Positions 45,445 to 52,656 of a stretch of 64,000 nucleotides of DNA are shown here, piece after piece. Origin of the DNA: Treponema sp. CETP13 (GTDB taxonomy: Bacteria; Spirochaetota; Spirochaetia; Treponematales; Treponemataceae); assembly GCA_001885315.1 (NCBI GenBank), contig MLPZ01000012.1:124001-188000 (forward strand), read 5' to 3'. The notes beneath the pieces are model-generated. The model ran no database searches. It was not told where the DNA came from and saw only the letters and a list, made by a program, of their open reading frames with translations. How positions within the stretch are numbered: the first letter of the stretch is position 1; the number at the start of each line of letters is the position of its first letter. A program made the translations under genes and the position numbers.

Positions 45445-45846
45445 ATGAAATTTTCATTTAAATCTAATCGTTTTGTAAAAGTTATCAGTACAGTTTTTTG
45501 TATTGCTGTCGCTTGTATCATTTTAAGTTATCTTTTTGTTTATCCATTATGGTTTTTTGCAGATAAAAAACCTCATGCCTTTTCTATAACTATATTTGTA
45601 ATTTTTATTTTATTCTTAGCTTATAAAGTAGTGTATAAAATTAAAGCATATCTAACTTTTGAAAATCCTGACATAATAGAAAAGAAAAAACGAATTCGTC
45701 GACTTGTAAAAGGGCTCTTTTTTTGGGGAATACTTATTCTATCTTTTTTGATTATTGTGTCCCTTGTGCTTAATGGATATAGGGCGTTCAGTTTTATACC
45801 TCTTGTTTTAGGAATAGTTTTTTGTGGTTTTTTACAAAAAAAATAA
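45445..45846 (+). CDS. Small membrane protein, unknown function
   Basis: A 133-residue protein with four predicted membrane segments (about 13-31, 42-60, 85-105 and 112-128) and a basic loop containing IIEKKKRIRRLVK. No family recognised. I use ATG 45445, set by the TATAAT box; a longer TTG-started frame from 45421 would start before the promoter. Its stop overlaps the start of the M23 peptidase gene (TAATG), so the two are translationally coupled and probably act together at the cell envelope. Confidence 0.75.
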   Translation: MKFSFKSNRFVKVISTVFCIAVACIILSYLFVYPLWFFADKKPHAFSITIFVIFILFLAYKVVYKIKAYLTFENPDIIEKKKRIRRLVKGLFFWGILILSFLIIVSLVLNGYRAFSFIPLVLGIVFCGFLQKK

Positions 45847-46790
45847 TGGAATTTATATATCAAAATAAATATAAAAAACTCATATTTTTATTTGCTTTGA
45901 TAGTCTATTTTTATTTGCCTTCTGCTCTTTTTTCTACAGGTATTTTAAGTTCCATTCCACAAAAAAAATTCCCGCAATTAGAATCCTTAACTGTAAATGA
46001 TTCATTATTTAAACAGTTTAGTGAAATCGTACAACAAAATTATCGTAATATTGCAGCAAAAAAGGATGTAGAATTCCAAATCTATGCGTATAAGGTCAAA
46101 GAAAATGAGGATTTACTAGCAATTGCTGCTCGTTGTAGTATCCCTTATGAAACGATAGCAACTTTAAATCATATCGCTTATATTGATGATAACATAGTTG
46201 GAAAAACCGTGTATCTTTGTACCTGTCCGGGGGTCTTTGTTGCAGATAATAAGAAAACGCAACTTGATTCTATTTTGGGAGTTTCAGACTTTGAAAAGTA
46301 TGTGAAATCATGTTATAATATAGAAGCCGAACAGTTTACTTTTTATGAAAATGCTCGTTTAAATGCAACTCAAAGAGCTTTTTTTACAGATTCAGGGTTC
46401 TTTTCACCTATTAGAAATGGGGTTCTTAGTTCTCCGTATGGTTTTAGGAAAAGTCCTTTTACAGGGAAAAAACAATTCCATCAAGGGATTGATATTGCAG
46501 TACCCGAAGGGGCTAAGGTTTATGCGTGTAAAAGTGGAACTGTACAGAATGTTGGATATTCAAGCATATATGGAAACTATATAAAGCTCAAACATGATGG
46601 GGATAAAACAAGTTTATACGCACATCTTTCAAAAGTAAATGTTACAGAAAAGGAAGAAGTTCATGGTGGGGATTGTATAGGTCTGGTTGGTTCAACAGGA
46701 TTATCTACAGGTTCTCATCTTCATTTTGAGATTCGATTTGGAACATCTTCAGAAAATCCAGAAGATGTTTCTTCACGTTTTAAATATTAA
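45846..46790 (+). CDS. M23 family peptidase with LysM-like domain
   Basis: A predicted peptidoglycan endopeptidase of 314 residues. It has an N-terminal membrane anchor or signal (about 12-34), a LysM-like module near 80-128 (YKVKENEDLLAIAARCSIP), and a LytM domain with zinc ligands in HQGIDIAVP near 215 and HLHFEIR near 297. All expected residues (H, D, H, H) are visible, so it should be active. ATG 45846 overlaps the previous stop. The next gene starts 20 bases downstream. Confidence 0.92.
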   Translation: MEFIYQNKYKKLIFLFALIVYFYLPSALFSTGILSSIPQKKFPQLESLTVNDSLFKQFSEIVQQNYRNIAAKKDVEFQIYAYKVKENEDLLAIAARCSIPYETIATLNHIAYIDDNIVGKTVYLCTCPGVFVADNKKTQLDSILGVSDFEKYVKSCYNIEAEQFTFYENARLNATQRAFFTDSGFFSPIRNGVLSSPYGFRKSPFTGKKQFHQGIDIAVPEGAKVYACKSGTVQNVGYSSIYGNYIKLKHDGDKTSLYAHLSKVNVTEKEEVHGGDCIGLVGSTGLSTGSHLHFEIRFGTSSENPEDVSSRFKY

Positions 46791-46810
46791 GGTAAAAGGA
46801 ACTTGATAAC

Positions 46811-47872
46811 ATGGTTGTGTCAATACAAAAAAAACAATTAATAGTTTCTCTAATTGTATTTTTATTTTGTATACTATTGTCATCTGCTGAAAATTTTCGT
46901 GTTCATAAAACTGTAATAGTTAATATACAAAATCAAATAGATAGCTCTGAAGTTCAACTTGGAATAAATGATTCTTTAGCTATCTTTTTACCAGAAGATA
47001 CTGAGTTTTTAAAAGGTTTAGAATTTGAGATCACAATTCCACAAGTAGCTGCATATAACCAAGGGGCCATTGCTTGGTCTTTATATGATAACATTTCTCC
47101 ACAACCTAACGTTGATGTTATTGATTATAGTGGAAATAAGTTATATTTAAATACGTTTCCAGGAACCTTAAGCTATAATGTTAAAATTCCCTTTGTGACT
47201 GATCACGGTTTAGAATCTTCTCCTTATACTACCATTCTTAAACAATTATATTCGCAAAAATCAGATTTTGTTTTTTTACGTTTTCAACTTGCAATGAAGG
47301 GTACATCTCCTGATTTGTATAATGCAATGTTTACTGTACAAGTTAAGCCTGTGTTATATGATGAAGGGCTATTAAATTTAAATATTAGTTATCCAAAACA
47401 CGAAATAAATTCAGAAGATACGGATGAAGATCTTATAGAGAATTTAGATGTACCTGAAAAATCAGTAATCTATGTTGATGATGAACCTGTAACAGAATTA
47501 ATCAACGGAGAAACAAAAAAATCATTGCGTTTAGCTACAGGGACTCATCATTTATCAATTGTGTCTGATAACTATCGCAATGAAGTAAGAACTTTTACGA
47601 TTGAGCAGGCTAAAATTTCTGCATTGGATATTGTCATGCATAACATAATGCCTCTTGTTGTAATCTCAGCTCCTTCTTCTGCAAAAATTTTTATGGATGA
47701 AGACGAAGTCCTTTTAAGTGATAAAGAAATTCCTCTTTTACCGGGGGAACATCAAATTAAATTTATCATTGATGATTATGAATTAGTAAAAAAAATTGTG
47801 GTTGAAAATGGGAAAACATATTCTATTAATCTTTCTATGAATATTGATGTTTCTGAAAAAAGTGATGAATAA
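46811..47872 (+). CDS. Exported protein with PEGA-like repeats
   Basis: A 353-residue exported protein. A signal peptide ends near SSAENF; residues ~30-195 form a beta-rich domain I do not recognise, and the C-terminal ~130 residues hold two PEGA-like repeats: KSVIYVDDEPVTELINGE with RLATGTHHLSIVSDNY, then SSAKIFMDEDEV with LLPGEHQIKFIIDDYE. Such surface repeats occur in many spirochaete envelope proteins. It is the last gene of the three-gene envelope operon with the M23 peptidase, and its N-terminal ATG 46811 is preceded by AAAAGGAA. Confidence 0.78.
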   Translation: MVVSIQKKQLIVSLIVFLFCILLSSAENFRVHKTVIVNIQNQIDSSEVQLGINDSLAIFLPEDTEFLKGLEFEITIPQVAAYNQGAIAWSLYDNISPQPNVDVIDYSGNKLYLNTFPGTLSYNVKIPFVTDHGLESSPYTTILKQLYSQKSDFVFLRFQLAMKGTSPDLYNAMFTVQVKPVLYDEGLLNLNISYPKHEINSEDTDEDLIENLDVPEKSVIYVDDEPVTELINGETKKSLRLATGTHHLSIVSDNYRNEVRTFTIEQAKISALDIVMHNIMPLVVISAPSSAKIFMDEDEVLLSDKEIPLLPGEHQIKFIIDDYELVKKIVVENGKTYSINLSMNIDVSEKSDE

Positions 47873-47910: not shown

Positions 47911-48012
47911 TCACCCGATATATAATATGTCGGGTGAACTAATCCCCTCCCACCCATTGTTTGCCCGACTGCCTGATGGGCATGGCCGGTTTCGTAAACC
48001 GGCCTTTTTTTT
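47911..48012 (+). ncRNA. Candidate structured RNA or 3' UTR element with terminator
   Basis: A GC-rich stretch in an AT-rich intergenic region. It starts with a perfect inverted repeat TCACCCGA/TCGGGTGA (47911-47918, 47930-47937) whose loop contains TATAAT, followed by possible stems GGGTG/CACCC and TGCCC/GGGCA, and ends in a strong terminator. GTCGGG (47929-47934) can instead pair with CCCGAC (47964-47969). It may be an ~80-base RNA from the internal TATAAT, or a folded end of the upstream operon. No known family is recognised. Confidence 0.35.
47984..48012 (+). terminator. Strong intrinsic terminator
   Basis: GGCCGGTTT (47984-47992), loop CGT, AAACCGGCC (47996-48004), then eight T residues. 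Confidence 0.93.
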
Positions 48013-48020
48013 GTATTAAA

Positions 48021-48614
48021 CTATTTTTTTAATCCTGTTAAAAATTTAATAAAGTAAAATAAACCTATAATGATAAAAATAATACCTATAATCGAAAGGA
48101 AAGTTGTAACTACGATATTGTTTCCAGATTGATAAGTTGCTGTTTCTAATATAAGAAAAAGTATTCCGATTAATAAAAAAAGAGATAAGAGAGCATTCTT
48201 TTTATGTTTGTTTTTTTTCTGGTTTTCCCTAATACTAAACGAGTTAGAAAAAAATAGTTTAATCGAATTGATTATGCGTTTAATAAATGAAGGGTTTCTA
48301 AGTTTTTCTAAAGTTGAATAAGCGTCTAATAATTCTTCTCGTGAAAAATCTTGACGGACAACGTTTTCTTCAATTTCTATTTCGAGCTGGGAAATTTTAT
48401 CCGGTGAAGAAGTTATAGTGATAGGTATGGTTTCCCAACCAAGTGCTATGGCAGCTCTTAAACGGCGCTCTCCGGCTATTAATTCATAATTTTCTGAGAC
48501 TACTATTGGATTGAGCAATCCATAGCGTTTTAAACTATCCATAAGTGGCTGAAGATCACCTACATCTTGACGAATCCTTTTTTTTACTTTTATTTGTGCA
48601 ATTTTAGCATTCAT
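48021..48614 (-). CDS. ParB/Noc-like N-terminal-domain protein with membrane anchor
   Basis: A 197-residue protein with an N-terminal ParB-type domain: LMDSLKRYGLLNPIVVS, the GERRLRAA box at 48-55 and ENVVRQDFSREELLDAY at 83-99, which correspond to the CTP/phosphate-binding motifs of ParB. The helix-turn-helix and dimer domains are missing; instead there are two membrane segments (about 141-157 and 166-190) after a basic linker. It has GAGGAG 7 bases before the ATG and lies 19 bases after pbp1A. Its role is unknown; membrane-bound CTP-switch or DNA tethering is an inference. Confidence 0.85.
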   Translation of the reverse strand: MNAKIAQIKVKKRIRQDVGDLQPLMDSLKRYGLLNPIVVSENYELIAGERRLRAAIALGWETIPITITSSPDKISQLEIEIEENVVRQDFSREELLDAYSTLEKLRNPSFIKRIINSIKLFFSNSFSIRENQKKNKHKKNALLSLFLLIGILFLILETATYQSGNNIVVTTFLSIIGIIFIIIGLFYFIKFLTGLKK

Positions 48615-48633
48615 AAAAAAACTCCTCTTAAAA

Positions 48634-51267
48634 TTAATCGAGTAAATTGTTAATCAGAGGCTTTTTAGCTTCTTGAAGCTCTTTTGTTGTTTCGTTGTCT
48701 GCAGTAATAGTGTTTTCTGAATCATCTAGATTTTTTGAACTGTCTGATGTTTCTGAGTCTTCTGTGTTTTCACTGGAAATTTCGTTTTTATTAGAAATTA
48801 TATCTTGTTTTAAGAAAGATAAATCAACTGTAAGAGGGGTGTTATCGATATCAGGATTTAGAATCGTTCCGGTTAAGAATTTTTCATATTCTAAACGTTG
48901 CGCTCCAATCTGTGCTGCTGTAATACGATTTGAATGTAATTCGCAAATTGTATCTGGTTGAGTTCCTGTAAGGTATATTCCATCAATTCTATTATCTCCA
49001 CAGGCATCTGTCAAAATCTGTCCAGATACAGAACAAACGGTTGCTTCAACTATTCCAGTTGTTGGTTTTTTAAATTCTTTATATGGAAGTCCTTCATTTG
49101 CAGCACTCATAAAATCACCCCAAGCTTGACCGGCAAGTGTTGAACCTGTAAGTTGTAATCCAAGAGATTGGCCAGTTTGATCAAAACCGAACCAAAATGC
49201 AGAGGTGTAATAAGGTGTAAAACCAACAGCCCAAGCTGCTTCCCAGTTTTGTGTGGTTCCTGTTTTACCTCCTGCAGGCATCGTAAAGCGATTTCCATTC
49301 TCATCTTTATATCTAAATTTTGTGCCCCAGCCAGATCCCCAAGCAAGACTTCCTGTCTTAACTGTGTTTTGTAGTAAATCTGTCATAATATAGGCAGTTT
49401 GAGGTGATATAACTTGTATGTCATTTCCTAAATCTTGTTCTTTTTGGCGTAATTCTTTTTCTGGATTTAAAATTATAGTACCTTTTTTATCTTCTATCGA
49501 TCGAATTGCTATAGGAGTTACACGTTTTCCTTCGTTTGCAAAAACAGCAAATGCTTGGGCGGCTTCTATAGGATGAATTGCGCATGTTCCAAGTCCAATT
49601 GGGTATCCAGGTACAAAGGCTCTATCATCAATTTCATCCTCAGGAATATTATATAGATTTGTCATTCTATCAATAGCTACATCAAATCCAATTGCATCAA
49701 GGATTTTTAAGGAAGGCACATTCATTGAATGTGCAAGTGCATACCATAATTGGACAGGACCTTTCCAAACTCCTTCAAAATCAAGAGGTATGTAAGGGTC
49801 TCCACTTTCTGTATGAAATACAATAGGAGTATCATAAATAATAGATGTTTCTGTAAATTTTCGGCTATCTATTGCTGCTGAATAGTACAATGGCTTAATT
49901 GAAGACCCAGGTTGCATTAGTCCTTGAGTACAACGAATAAGCTGGTTTGTTTCGCTAAATTTTGATCCTCCAATTAAAGCTGTAATGTACCCTGTATTGT
50001 TTTCGAGAGAAATCATTGTTCCTTCAATTGTTGTTTTTGCACTTTCATCAACAACTTCTGAATTTAAACGATTGACAACTCCTACTTTTAAATTTTCAAC
50101 TCCAAACATAAGAGTCATCATGTCAACAACGGGATTTAAAACTTCTTTATAGTAGGTTTTTGAAGTCAATTCGTTACGTTGTTCCGATACTTTTAGGTCT
50201 GGAATGTTAAACACTAATGACATAAGCTCTGTCATTGGGATATATGTTTTTGAGGCATCACTAGAGCGAGCTTCACTTGAATTTAGATATGAGCGATTGG
50301 CATAGTCAATCCATTTTTTCATTGTTTTTTGAGCTGCTAATTGATGGCTCATATTTAAGGTTGTATTAACTGTATACCCATCTGTATAAATATTTGTATT
50401 TCCATACAATTTTTTTAGTAATTCTCGACGAACATATTCACTAAACCAAGGAGTTGGATCTTCACGCATTGCATATGCAGAAGTATTAGTTCTCGTGTAG
50501 TCAAAATTAGCCCAGTATTCATCAAAAGATTCGTCAGCTTCTTCTTGGGTAAGATACTTTAAATTTACCATATAATCGAGAACATATTTTTGCCGTTCCA
50601 TGGCTATGTTAGGATGTTCAAAGGGATTGTAATATGCGGGGTTTGATAACTGAATCACCAAAATTGCTGCTTCAGCCGGAGTTATTTCTGTAGCAGAATG
50701 TCCAAAATAATATTTTGAAGCAGCCCCAACACCGTTTGTTCCACCTCCAAAATATACTTTGTTAATATATAATTCTAAAATTTCATTTTTTGAAAATCTT
50801 CTTTCCATTTGAATAGCCCACCAGAGCTCTTTGATTTTGCGGCTTATAGAAATTTCAGTACGGTCACAATATAACGTTCCACCTATTTGTTGGGTTAGGG
50901 TAGATCCTCCTCCGAGATTTAGACCGGTTAATTTTCCAACAACAGCTCTAAAAATAGCTTTTAAACTAAAACCTGGATGCTCATAGAAAATGTTATCTTC
51001 GCGGGATATTAAAGCTGCTATCATTGTTTGAGGAAGCTTAGTAAGAGAAACAATTTCTCTTTTTTCATTACCAGAAAACTCTGTAATGAATTCTCCATTT
51101 ATATCTAGTAGCTTTGTTGGAAGTGATGTATCAAAGCTTGTAAATTGTTCTGTGTTTTTTGTATTAATTGTTGCACCAACAAGTATTCCAAGGGATATAC
51201 CAAAAAATACGACGAAAAATGATGCAATAGAAAAAAGGATAACAATTTTTCTTTTTGTTTTTTCCAT
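48634..51267 (-). CDS. Class A penicillin-binding protein (PBP1A type)
   Basis: A bifunctional cell-wall synthase of 877 residues. After a membrane anchor (8-32) comes the transglycosylase domain with catalytic glutamate in SREDNIFYEHPGF near 90 and GGGSTLTQQIGG near 118; the transpeptidase domain has SSIK (QPGSSIKPLYYSA), SMN (AHSMNVPS) and KTG (GGKTGTTQNW). The tail after about 820 is acidic and Ser/Thr rich. The promoter TTGACA-N17-TAATCT ends 6 bases before the ATG, making the mRNA leaderless. The ParB-like protein follows in the same unit. Confidence 0.95.
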   Translation of the reverse strand: MEKTKRKIVILFSIASFFVVFFGISLGILVGATINTKNTEQFTSFDTSLPTKLLDINGEFITEFSGNEKREIVSLTKLPQTMIAALISREDNIFYEHPGFSLKAIFRAVVGKLTGLNLGGGSTLTQQIGGTLYCDRTEISISRKIKELWWAIQMERRFSKNEILELYINKVYFGGGTNGVGAASKYYFGHSATEITPAEAAILVIQLSNPAYYNPFEHPNIAMERQKYVLDYMVNLKYLTQEEADESFDEYWANFDYTRTNTSAYAMREDPTPWFSEYVRRELLKKLYGNTNIYTDGYTVNTTLNMSHQLAAQKTMKKWIDYANRSYLNSSEARSSDASKTYIPMTELMSLVFNIPDLKVSEQRNELTSKTYYKEVLNPVVDMMTLMFGVENLKVGVVNRLNSEVVDESAKTTIEGTMISLENNTGYITALIGGSKFSETNQLIRCTQGLMQPGSSIKPLYYSAAIDSRKFTETSIIYDTPIVFHTESGDPYIPLDFEGVWKGPVQLWYALAHSMNVPSLKILDAIGFDVAIDRMTNLYNIPEDEIDDRAFVPGYPIGLGTCAIHPIEAAQAFAVFANEGKRVTPIAIRSIEDKKGTIILNPEKELRQKEQDLGNDIQVISPQTAYIMTDLLQNTVKTGSLAWGSGWGTKFRYKDENGNRFTMPAGGKTGTTQNWEAAWAVGFTPYYTSAFWFGFDQTGQSLGLQLTGSTLAGQAWGDFMSAANEGLPYKEFKKPTTGIVEATVCSVSGQILTDACGDNRIDGIYLTGTQPDTICELHSNRITAAQIGAQRLEYEKFLTGTILNPDIDNTPLTVDLSFLKQDIISNKNEISSENTEDSETSDSSKNLDDSENTITADNETTKELQEAKKPLINNLLD

Positions 51268-51273
51268 TAATAC

Positions 51274-51302
51274 AGATTAGTAAATAGTGGTCTTTTTGTC
51301 AA
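51274..51302 (-). promoter_or_regulatory. Leaderless-type promoter of pbp1A
   Basis: On the minus strand TTGACA (51302-51297), 17 bases, TAATCT (51279-51274), 6 bases, ATG 51267. The -35 box overlaps the stop codon region of the ThrE-type gene. Confidence 0.75.
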
Positions 51303-51784
51303 CGAGTTTTAATTCTTATCCGACGAATAATCCGTGCAGATGATGAGGCAAGAGCAATACCGAGAGCTATGGCGCCAGCTTCACCCAGTGTTTGGTAGCC
51401 AAGTGTTCCTGCCTTAGTTAAGTTCCCTGTAAGGGCAGCTTCCATAGTGTTAAACATTCCGCCTCCTGGGACAAGAGGAAGAAGCCCTGGTAGAATGAAA
51501 ATTGTGGCAGGCTTTTTTTGGTAACTGGCAAGAATTTCAGCAACAATGGAAACAGTAAAAGCTCCAGTAAAATATCCTCCAAATAACGAACCAGTTAATC
51601 CAAATATTGATAAGTATAAAATCCAACCAATCGATCCTAGTAAAGCGCAAAATAGTATGTCCCTATGAAAAGCGTTTAAGCAAACAGAAAAACAAGCAGA
51701 GGCTCCTGCACTCCATAGGGCAGCAAGAAGAATATTTATAGCTACAGAGTTTGTAGATATTGCTCCTGAAAAGGCTTCTGTCAT
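51299..51784 (-). CDS. Threonine/serine exporter family protein, small subunit (ThrE C-terminal half)
   Basis: A 161-residue membrane protein with about five helices and the family segment ILPGLLPLVPGGGMFNTMEAAL near 100-120 (short form PLVPGG). It corresponds to the C-terminal half of the ThrE-type exporter, here a separate gene overlapping the N-terminal-half gene by 4 bases. Together they should export threonine and serine or a related small molecule (inference). Confidence 0.88.
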   Translation of the reverse strand: MTEAFSGAISTNSVAINILLAALWSAGASACFSVCLNAFHRDILFCALLGSIGWILYLSIFGLTGSLFGGYFTGAFTVSIVAEILASYQKKPATIFILPGLLPLVPGGGMFNTMEAALTGNLTKAGTLGYQTLGEAGAIALGIALASSSARIIRRIRIKTR

Positions 51785-52656
51785 AGAAATACTCCTGTTA
51801 ATAATAATCCTGCTGCAGTTCCTGCTGACAATCCTGCTGCAATCATAAAAGCTTCAAACAAACGCGCTGTGCCAGAAACTAAATCTCCTGCTATCATATC
51901 TCTCATTGCATTTGTAATTGCAATGCCGGGAACAACAAGCATGAGAACAGATACTATTATTTGCATGTATGAGACCGGTATTTGATTAGGAGAAAAAATA
52001 AGAGAAATTATATTAGTTGCTAAAAATGCTAAAAAAGCAGTAAAAAAACCACTAACAAGAGATACAGTGAAAGTATTTCGAGTAACCTTTTCTAAAGCTA
52101 TTAGAACTATTCTTAATAAAAAACCAATGACAAATGCAATTGTTGCGTCATAAAAATTTCCACCAAACATAAGAGCAAAAAAAGCTGCACTAAATCCACT
52201 CATTAAAATTATGAGTTTTTTTGTAAAACAAGGGGCTTTTTCAATAGTTAAAAGTTTATTTTTTATTTCTTGAATTGAAAGGTTTGATGGTTGTACAGGA
52301 GCCCCTGATCCAATTTTTGTGCAAGAAGTCGTCTGAAGCATACTACCAGTTATTTCTCTTGATAGTGTATTGATACGATCGACTTTTTCTAAATTTGTTC
52401 CTCTAATAGTTATTCGATGTACAGAAGTGTGAGTGTTATTTTCTGAATCTTTAAATGAGACCATAATAACTGTTGGGGTTACAAATGCAGAAACAGTCAA
52501 AGCTCCAAGAGATCTAGCTATACGTACAATTGTTTCTTCTGTTCGATATGTTTCTCCACCGTTCTCTAAAACAAGTGCTCCAGCTCGTAGACAAATATCA
52601 ATAATGTCTTCGCTACAGTTCATGTTTGTTTTTTTGATACTATAAGAGTTAGTCAT
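51781..52656 (-). CDS. Threonine/serine exporter family protein, large subunit (ThrE N-terminal half)
   Basis: The soluble N-terminal domain includes LRAGALVLENGGETYRTEETIVRIA and a later SVHRI, followed by about five membrane helices, as in the N-terminal half of ThrE (DUF1212). The start is unsure: ATG 52656 (291 residues) begins 5 bases after argS; ATG 52623 is the alternative. An upstream frame to 52788 would run through the end of argS and is unlikely. Overlaps the second exporter gene by 4 bases. Confidence 0.85.
   Translation of the reverse strand: MTNSYSIKKTNMNCSEDIIDICLRAGALVLENGGETYRTEETIVRIARSLGALTVSAFVTPTVIMVSFKDSENNTHTSVHRITIRGTNLEKVDRINTLSREITGSMLQTTSCTKIGSGAPVQPSNLSIQEIKNKLLTIEKAPCFTKKLIILMSGFSAAFFALMFGGNFYDATIAFVIGFLLRIVLIALEKVTRNTFTVSLVSGFFTAFLAFLATNIISLIFSPNQIPVSYMQIIVSVLMLVVPGIAITNAMRDMIAGDLVSGTARLFEAFMIAAGLSAGTAAGLLLTGVFL

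Follow-up and report, generated by a model that had tools for sequence, protein, structure and literature searches.

ParB-type nucleotide switches are known from DNA segregation and a few offshoots, and in ParB itself the nucleotide brings two N-domains together. Class A penicillin-binding proteins (PBPs) have membrane or cytosolic partners such as MacP and GpsB; we know of no such partner with a ParB fold. Noc, the ParB paralogue of nucleoid occlusion in Bacillus, joins a ParB-fold CTP domain to a membrane-binding amphipathic helix that CTP is thought to free (PMC8429893). Its helix is N-terminal, its DNA-binding and C-terminal domains are kept, and it binds DNA. In PadC of Myxococcus xanthus, a ParB-like domain acts as a scaffold: it has a Phe (F348) at the site of the GERR Glu, lacks box III (ENLQR), and binds CTP without hydrolysing it (PMC8494293), and the protein recruits ParA to bactofilin structures (PMC9712426). 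The locus described here encodes a short ParB-fold protein directly behind PBP1A, a class A PBP.

A short ParB-fold protein encoded behind PBP1A

The window, by which we mean the whole 64,000-nucleotide stretch analysed, comes from Treponema sp. CETP13 (contig MLPZ01000012.1, positions 124,001 to 188,000), and its relevant features are listed in Table 1. PBP1A scores 187.5 bits for Transgly, 73.9 bits for Transpeptidase and 559.6 bits for TIGR02074. After its stop codon a gap of exactly 19 bases leads to the ParB-like gene on the same strand, and the AGGAG lies shortly 5' of the ATG; an earlier note on this DNA, which gave no strand for the frame (it is minus), had described this spacing behind a cell-wall synthase correctly. 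It was also right that the protein keeps the GERRLRAA and ENVVR boxes of ParB (residues 48–55 and 83–87) and has lost the DNA-binding and dimerisation domains. ParB_N scores 49.6 bits against a Pfam cut-off of 26.3, no second Pfam domain rises above cut-off, neither an HTH nor a C-terminal dimerisation domain is found in the window protein, and the DNA-binding domain that Noc uses for NBS is absent from both the Pfam assignment and the AlphaFold2 model. A chance ORF or artefact is ruled out by 41 orthologues with in-frame conservation (E ≤ 1.6e-25) among 58 other genomes.

Table 1 Positions of the ParB-like gene, its protein segments and the neighbouring genes in the window
Feature	Position	Strand	Basis or remark
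LysM/M23 peptidase (wall hydrolase type)	45822..46790	plus	part of a likely ancestral gene row
PEGA-domain secreted protein	46811..47872	plus	convergent with the PBP1A operon in the window
ParB-fold membrane protein gene (P0001)	48021..48614	minus	ATG start, ORF of 197 aa
Predicted transmembrane helix 2, residues 167–193	48036..48116	minus	hydropathy and AlphaFold2 model
Predicted transmembrane helix 1, residues 137–163	48126..48206	minus	hydropathy and AlphaFold2 model
C-terminal amphipathic helix, residues about 110–131	48222..48287	minus	hydrophobic moment, AlphaFold2 model
ParB_N nucleotide-binding domain, residues 1–106	48297..48614	minus	Pfam PF02195, AlphaFold2 model, Foldseek and VIA
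Ribosome-binding site AGGAG, inside the 19-base gap after PBP1A	48622..48626	minus	sequence
PBP1A, class A penicillin-binding protein, 877 aa (P0002)	48634..51267	minus	Pfam, TIGR02074

Structure prediction, which the earlier note had suggested, returned a ParB-type fold that matches Noc, ParB and PadC. The AlphaFold2 model was built from six sequences and is only moderate overall (mean pLDDT 74.6, pTM 0.40), being best at residues 1–10 and 21–70; it contains the ParB fold, the amphipathic helix and the two long helices that follow. Foldseek places the model nearest to Noc, ParB, KorB and PadC (best E 6e-6, to Noc), and VIA matches the same four proteins at Z 10–12 over about 85 residues. VIA also matches plant sulfiredoxin (Z 12.1) and SerK (Z 9.0) over residues 1–84, and its matches for hairpin residues 139–197 were set aside as generic helix matches. 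Four other family members score 34.1, 42.5, 40.5 and 48 bits for ParB_N, and the family profile gives 61 bits for ParB against 25 for Srx. The ParB fold of the window protein is thus well supported. Single-domain ParB-fold proteins were found to be mostly long in a 2025 survey (PMC12704722); in the present family, by contrast, the fold makes up a bacterial membrane module that is short and stands alone.

Behind this domain, the window protein has two hydrophobic segments with a Kyte-Doolittle peak of 2.87, which form the predicted hairpin. The earlier note, which spoke of two membrane helices, overlooked the conserved amphipathic helix that separates the hairpin from the ParB domain. It also missed that most orthologues carry this helix alone. 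In the window protein itself the helix is weak by its hydrophobic moment (p 0.03 in a fixed frame, p 0.12 in a free scan).

These features set the protein apart from each of its described relatives. It shares with canonical ParB the N-terminal nucleotide-binding domain with boxes II and III; its family, however, lacks the ParA motif, the HTH and the dimerisation domain at the C-terminus, and the gene is not beside parA. Whereas Noc has its helix at the N-terminus and binds DNA, the window protein has a C-terminal helix and hairpin and no DNA-binding domain. PadC lacks both the GERR Glu and the ENLQR box, while the window protein keeps both; across the family box III never varies, and a membrane helix serves as the anchor. 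It would resemble MacP and GpsB as a small membrane-proximal partner on the cytoplasmic side. The host genome encodes just one other ParB_N protein, a canonical ParB (frame of 311 codons) that carries LGKGL as its ParA motif, together with QPR and GERR, and adjoins a gene recognised by eye as ParA-type. The ParA-binding motif [LFI]G[KR]G[LFI], present in that protein, occurs in 0/102 family members. Because a separate canonical ParB lies beside a ParA-type gene, segregation is not the likely job of the window protein, as the earlier note had also suggested.

Distribution of the family and its tie to PBP1A

Family searches covered Spirochaetota genomes, and we speak of a Spirochaetota family in that sense only. 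Orthologues at E ≤ 1.6e-25 are present in 42 of the 59 genomes nearest to the window, its own included, and when a profile built from them (A1) was run on 296 Spirochaetota genomes, 156 had a clear member (E ≤ 1e-28), as counted from the result table. Below these the values drop to 5.5e-22, and all other best matches, at about 1e-20 to 1e-13, are at the level of canonical ParB. We analysed 102 members: the window protein with 41 others from its order, 23 from further families in the class, and 37 from outside the class; the latter two sets, 60 in all, were hand-picked for breadth. A contig scan with P0001 gave six loci, five of them in the family and one (L039) by eye a ParB-domain methyltransferase fusion. 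One genome (G048, locus L081) carries a second ParB-like protein of 287 aa that is weakly similar to the family (E 3e-9).

A typical member has about 126–150 residues, most often near 130, in which the ParB N-domain is followed by a short C-terminal amphipathic helix, with the HTH and dimerisation domains absent. The helix is basic and aromatic-rich, of the type NPGFFRRIWNAIKAFFKRLF. The best tail helix beats shuffles of its own tail (p < 0.05) in 40/42 proteins of the order, 13/23 from the rest of the class and 30/37 of other classes, by a hydrophobic-moment scan in which the discriminant D and its thresholds come from a rough custom script. This helix, common to the family, is predicted to bind membranes. 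An alignable two-helix hairpin after it is found in 12/102 members, all in the window's family (f1), which rules out that two transmembrane helices define the system. The hairpin needs four changes on a tree of 125 columns with mostly weak branches, and may still have a single origin. Membrane contact through the amphipathic helix is likely old and the hairpin a later addition, one that fits a need for the protein to sit at the membrane. Predicted membrane attachment is well supported for the family; the anchor of the earlier note holds in its hairpin form for the window protein, and 90/102 members are without it.

The tie to PBP1A extends well beyond the window, so that it is no oddity of Treponema. 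In 38 of 42 order loci (37/41 and the window) the gene immediately upstream, on the same strand, is PBP1A, the exceptions being one contig edge (L077) and three genomes of family f1 (L052, L066, L069) in which the ParB-like gene stands apart from a PBP1A encoded elsewhere. The 23 loci chosen from ten other families of class Spirochaetia all show the same arrangement, which brings the adjacency to 13 families of the class. Seven of these 23 loci are Borreliaceae-like (L115–L121); one, L116, reads pgi (assigned by eye), ParB-like gene, PBP, PilZ (assigned by Pfam), which we take to match BB_0730 to BB_0733 of B. burgdorferi. No open-access paper was found on BB0731 or BB0732. The gap from PBP1A to the ParB-like gene has a median of 27.5 bases and is ≤60 bases in 55/60 loci. 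A gap of 173 bases is seen in L038, and in a marine MAG contig (L036) a gcvH-like gene, assigned by eye, lies in between. As a control, no single family accounts for the gene on the far side of the ParB-like gene in more than 8/63 loci, with a gene caller that put PBP1A at –1 in 54/63, an undercount relative to the locus analysis.

Outside class Spirochaetia the adjacency is 0/37, so PBP1A is not always the neighbour and cannot be the only partner. In two loci of other classes (L135, L136) a PBP lies 3.9 kb upstream of the ParB-like gene, with apparent glycine-cleavage genes (by eye) between the two. Neighbours otherwise vary and include NfeD and a 644-aa protein with no Pfam match. In six loci from a separate spirochaete group (L144, L145, L164–L167) the ParB-like gene is directly followed by a gene for a protein of 627–676 aa that looks exported, and the one tested for Pfam domains (L167:6395-8329) had no match; this protein is a possible alternative partner.

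PBP1A is also found without the ParB-like gene, in 17 genomes (including part of genus g4, G019, G319, G042, G056, three of f3 and G309), and can thus work without it. By tblastn no gene remnant was found behind PBP1A in these 17 loci where sequence exists, one of them (L186) ending at a contig edge, apart from two weak 29-residue matches (L172, L173; E 0.003–0.006). In family f13, both are missing: PBP1A in 0/7 genomes tested (1e-30) and the ParB-like protein in 0/12. This family may be the Sphaerochaetaceae, which are not known to have PBPs. Sphaerochaeta coccoides has only one transpeptidase (PMC4423922). The link to PBP1A is strong by position but, given the absences and the unlinked loci, neither strict nor universal. 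The earlier note had named orthologues without the hairpin or without PBP1A beside them as evidence against its idea; such cases restrict what it proposed without refuting it. The combination of a ParB domain with a PBP1A neighbour recurs through the class, as that note had proposed to look for, and the membrane hairpin does not.

The genes around the pair offer some further context. M23, PEGA, PBP1A and ParB-like genes are colinear in 18/41 order and 7/23 class loci, a row that is likely ancestral. In the window the M23 and PEGA genes (45822-47872) adjoin the operon but face it, whereas in many relatives they are co-directional and upstream. A hairpin with a T-run lies on the plus strand at 47984-48004, between the PEGA and ParB-like genes. 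Upstream of PBP1A, after 31 bases, are two genes for ThrE-type threonine/serine exporters (51299-52656); none of the 64 loci from relatives in the class has the smaller of the two, and the operon is thus variable on its upstream side. The C-terminus of PBP1A in the class very often reads N-x-L-L-D/E, and NNLLD in the window (C-terminus at 48634-48660). A strict pattern stands at the very end in 33/60 linked loci. The motif terminates an acidic tail expected outside the membrane, and resembles a short signal for binding or processing.

The nucleotide pocket

The pocket residues R13, R15, G48, R50, R51, E80, E83, N84 and R87 are invariant in all 102 members. They include those that correspond to the phosphate-holding residues of ParB, G48, R50 and R51 in the GxRR P-motif and E83, N84 and R87 in box III, and both motifs (GxRR and ENxxR) are kept in 102/102. 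Of the CTP-pocket residues whose loss the earlier note had named as speaking against it, those for phosphate are thus kept.

The residues of hydrolysis give a different picture. CTP hydrolysis requires E78 and E111 in ParB of B. subtilis (PMC8494293) and Q52 in ParB of M. xanthus (PMC12462528), for which the equivalents in the window protein are E49, E83 and K11, the last read from profile alignment and motif position, not from superposition. The E111 equivalent is kept in 102/102. Residue 49 is Glu in only 17/102 and is lost in the other 85, where it is Tyr (36), Gln (12), His (11), Phe (9), Arg (7), Gly (6), Ala (3) or Leu (1). Residue 11 is the Gln of QPR in a single member, family members mostly having basic residues before the Arg. 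The family as a whole therefore lacks the three-residue set of a hydrolysing ParB-type CTPase, and the window protein has K, E and E at these sites. With two of the three residues mostly replaced, most members are predicted to bind nucleotide in the manner of PadC: judged from these residues, they probably bind a nucleotide with little turnover, and the window protein would be intermediate. ParB-fold proteins include CTP, ATP and GTP binders, 17 of 28 purified ones bound none, and the type of nucleotide is not predictable from sequence, according to the survey (PMC12704722). A CTP switch, as the earlier note had it, is thus a conjecture for a family that keeps the phosphate-binding residues in every member and has mostly lost two of the three residues for hydrolysis.

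A possible role beside PBP1A

We tentatively favour, at a little below an even chance, a membrane-attached single-domain ParB-fold protein that acts with PBP1A as a nucleotide sensor or scaffold; we infer the bound nucleotide, the dimerisation and the action on PBP1A. For it speak the ParB fold with its kept pocket, the predicted membrane helix, the PBP1A adjacency in the class beside a changing gene on the far side, the M23 and PEGA genes as a wall-related setting, the joint absence of both proteins from f13 and the separate canonical ParB of the host. Against it stand the loci outside the class, the 17 genomes with PBP1A alone, the three unlinked f1 genomes, the replaced hydrolysis residues, the very short cytoplasmic part of PBP1A and the weak amphipathic helix of the window protein. 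Nucleotide would be bound as in ParB, with CTP the first guess, and its binding would make two ParB-like domains engage face to face. The engaged dimer would bring two amphipathic helices next to each other and so increase their affinity for the membrane, and the paired C-terminal helices would keep it on the cytoplasmic membrane's inner face. MinD follows the same logic, in which nucleotide-driven dimerisation pairs amphipathic helices, and the resemblance would be one of logic with an unrelated fold. In the hairpin forms of the window's group of genera, anchoring would be permanent and independent of nucleotide-driven helix pairing. The dimer may then contact the short cytoplasmic tail of PBP1A or its membrane helix; only about seven cytoplasmic residues precede that helix, so contact would be made through this tail or within the membrane. 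PBP1A would be placed or switched according to nucleotide state, and, as the pocket residues make weak or no hydrolysis probable for most members, the protein would be a sensor of nucleotide level or a scaffold more than a timer.

A membrane scaffold of the PadC or Noc type, with a client other than PBP1A (a ParA-like ATPase, the nucleoid or a bactofilin), is unlikely but a serious candidate; co-transcription with PBP1A would then merely tie the level of the protein to envelope growth. The absence of PBP1A from beside the gene in other classes speaks for it, as do the loss of the GERR Glu in most members, which PadC shares (F348; PMC8494293), and the precedent of Noc as a ParB-fold protein with an amphipathic helix (PMC8429893). 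Against such clients speak the lack of a ParA-binding motif in every family member, a window protein that has neither HTH nor bactofilin domain, and the persistence of PBP1A next to the gene in 13 families of the class. The fold may also have been kept as a protein-protein module, its ligand lost or irrelevant. The many purified ParB-fold proteins without NTP binding (17/28; PMC12704722) and the frequent replacement of the Q52 and E78 equivalents point that way; we nevertheless think it improbable, as G48, R50, R51, E83, N84 and R87 are invariant beyond what a structural role alone would be expected to require.

Gene order could also be old and carry no functional tie to PBP1A. Several lineages have cleanly lost the gene that follows PBP1A, three f1 genomes have it unlinked, and the order of the M23 and PEGA neighbours is partly conserved, all of which would suit such a passenger; yet the pairing with PBP1A lasts where the neighbour on the far side keeps changing, and a passenger is quite improbable. 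An enzyme of the same fold, using ATP as sulfiredoxin or the free-serine kinase does, is barely credible. The catalytic Cys of sulfiredoxin sits at the second position of GxRR, where 0/102 members have Cys; the ParB feature ENxxR is invariant, the family profile favours ParB over Srx, and the VIA matches to plant sulfiredoxin and SerK that suggest such an enzyme are expected from the shared fold.

The earlier note knew of no described system of this kind, and we likewise found no description of a ParB-like/PBP1A system in the open-access literature that our search covered. Excerpts of a Borrelia partition paper (PMC9712426) contain none, and the words "spirochaet", "spirochet", "penicillin" and "Borrelia" are absent from the main text of the survey (PMC12704722). 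Nor did that open-access search find a ParB-type switch acting on the cell wall. The fold is already known; what appears undescribed is its stand-alone membrane form and the tie of that form to PBP1A. It is possible, if doubtful, that a spirochaete membrane ParB-fold switch gates or places the main bifunctional wall synthase and so ties peptidoglycan synthesis to the pool of cytidine or other nucleotides. If this were true, placing or controlling wall synthesis would be a new job for the ParB nucleotide-binding domain, and a conserved small membrane protein behind PBP1A, from free-living forms to Borreliaceae-like genomes, is a concrete and easily tested candidate for it.
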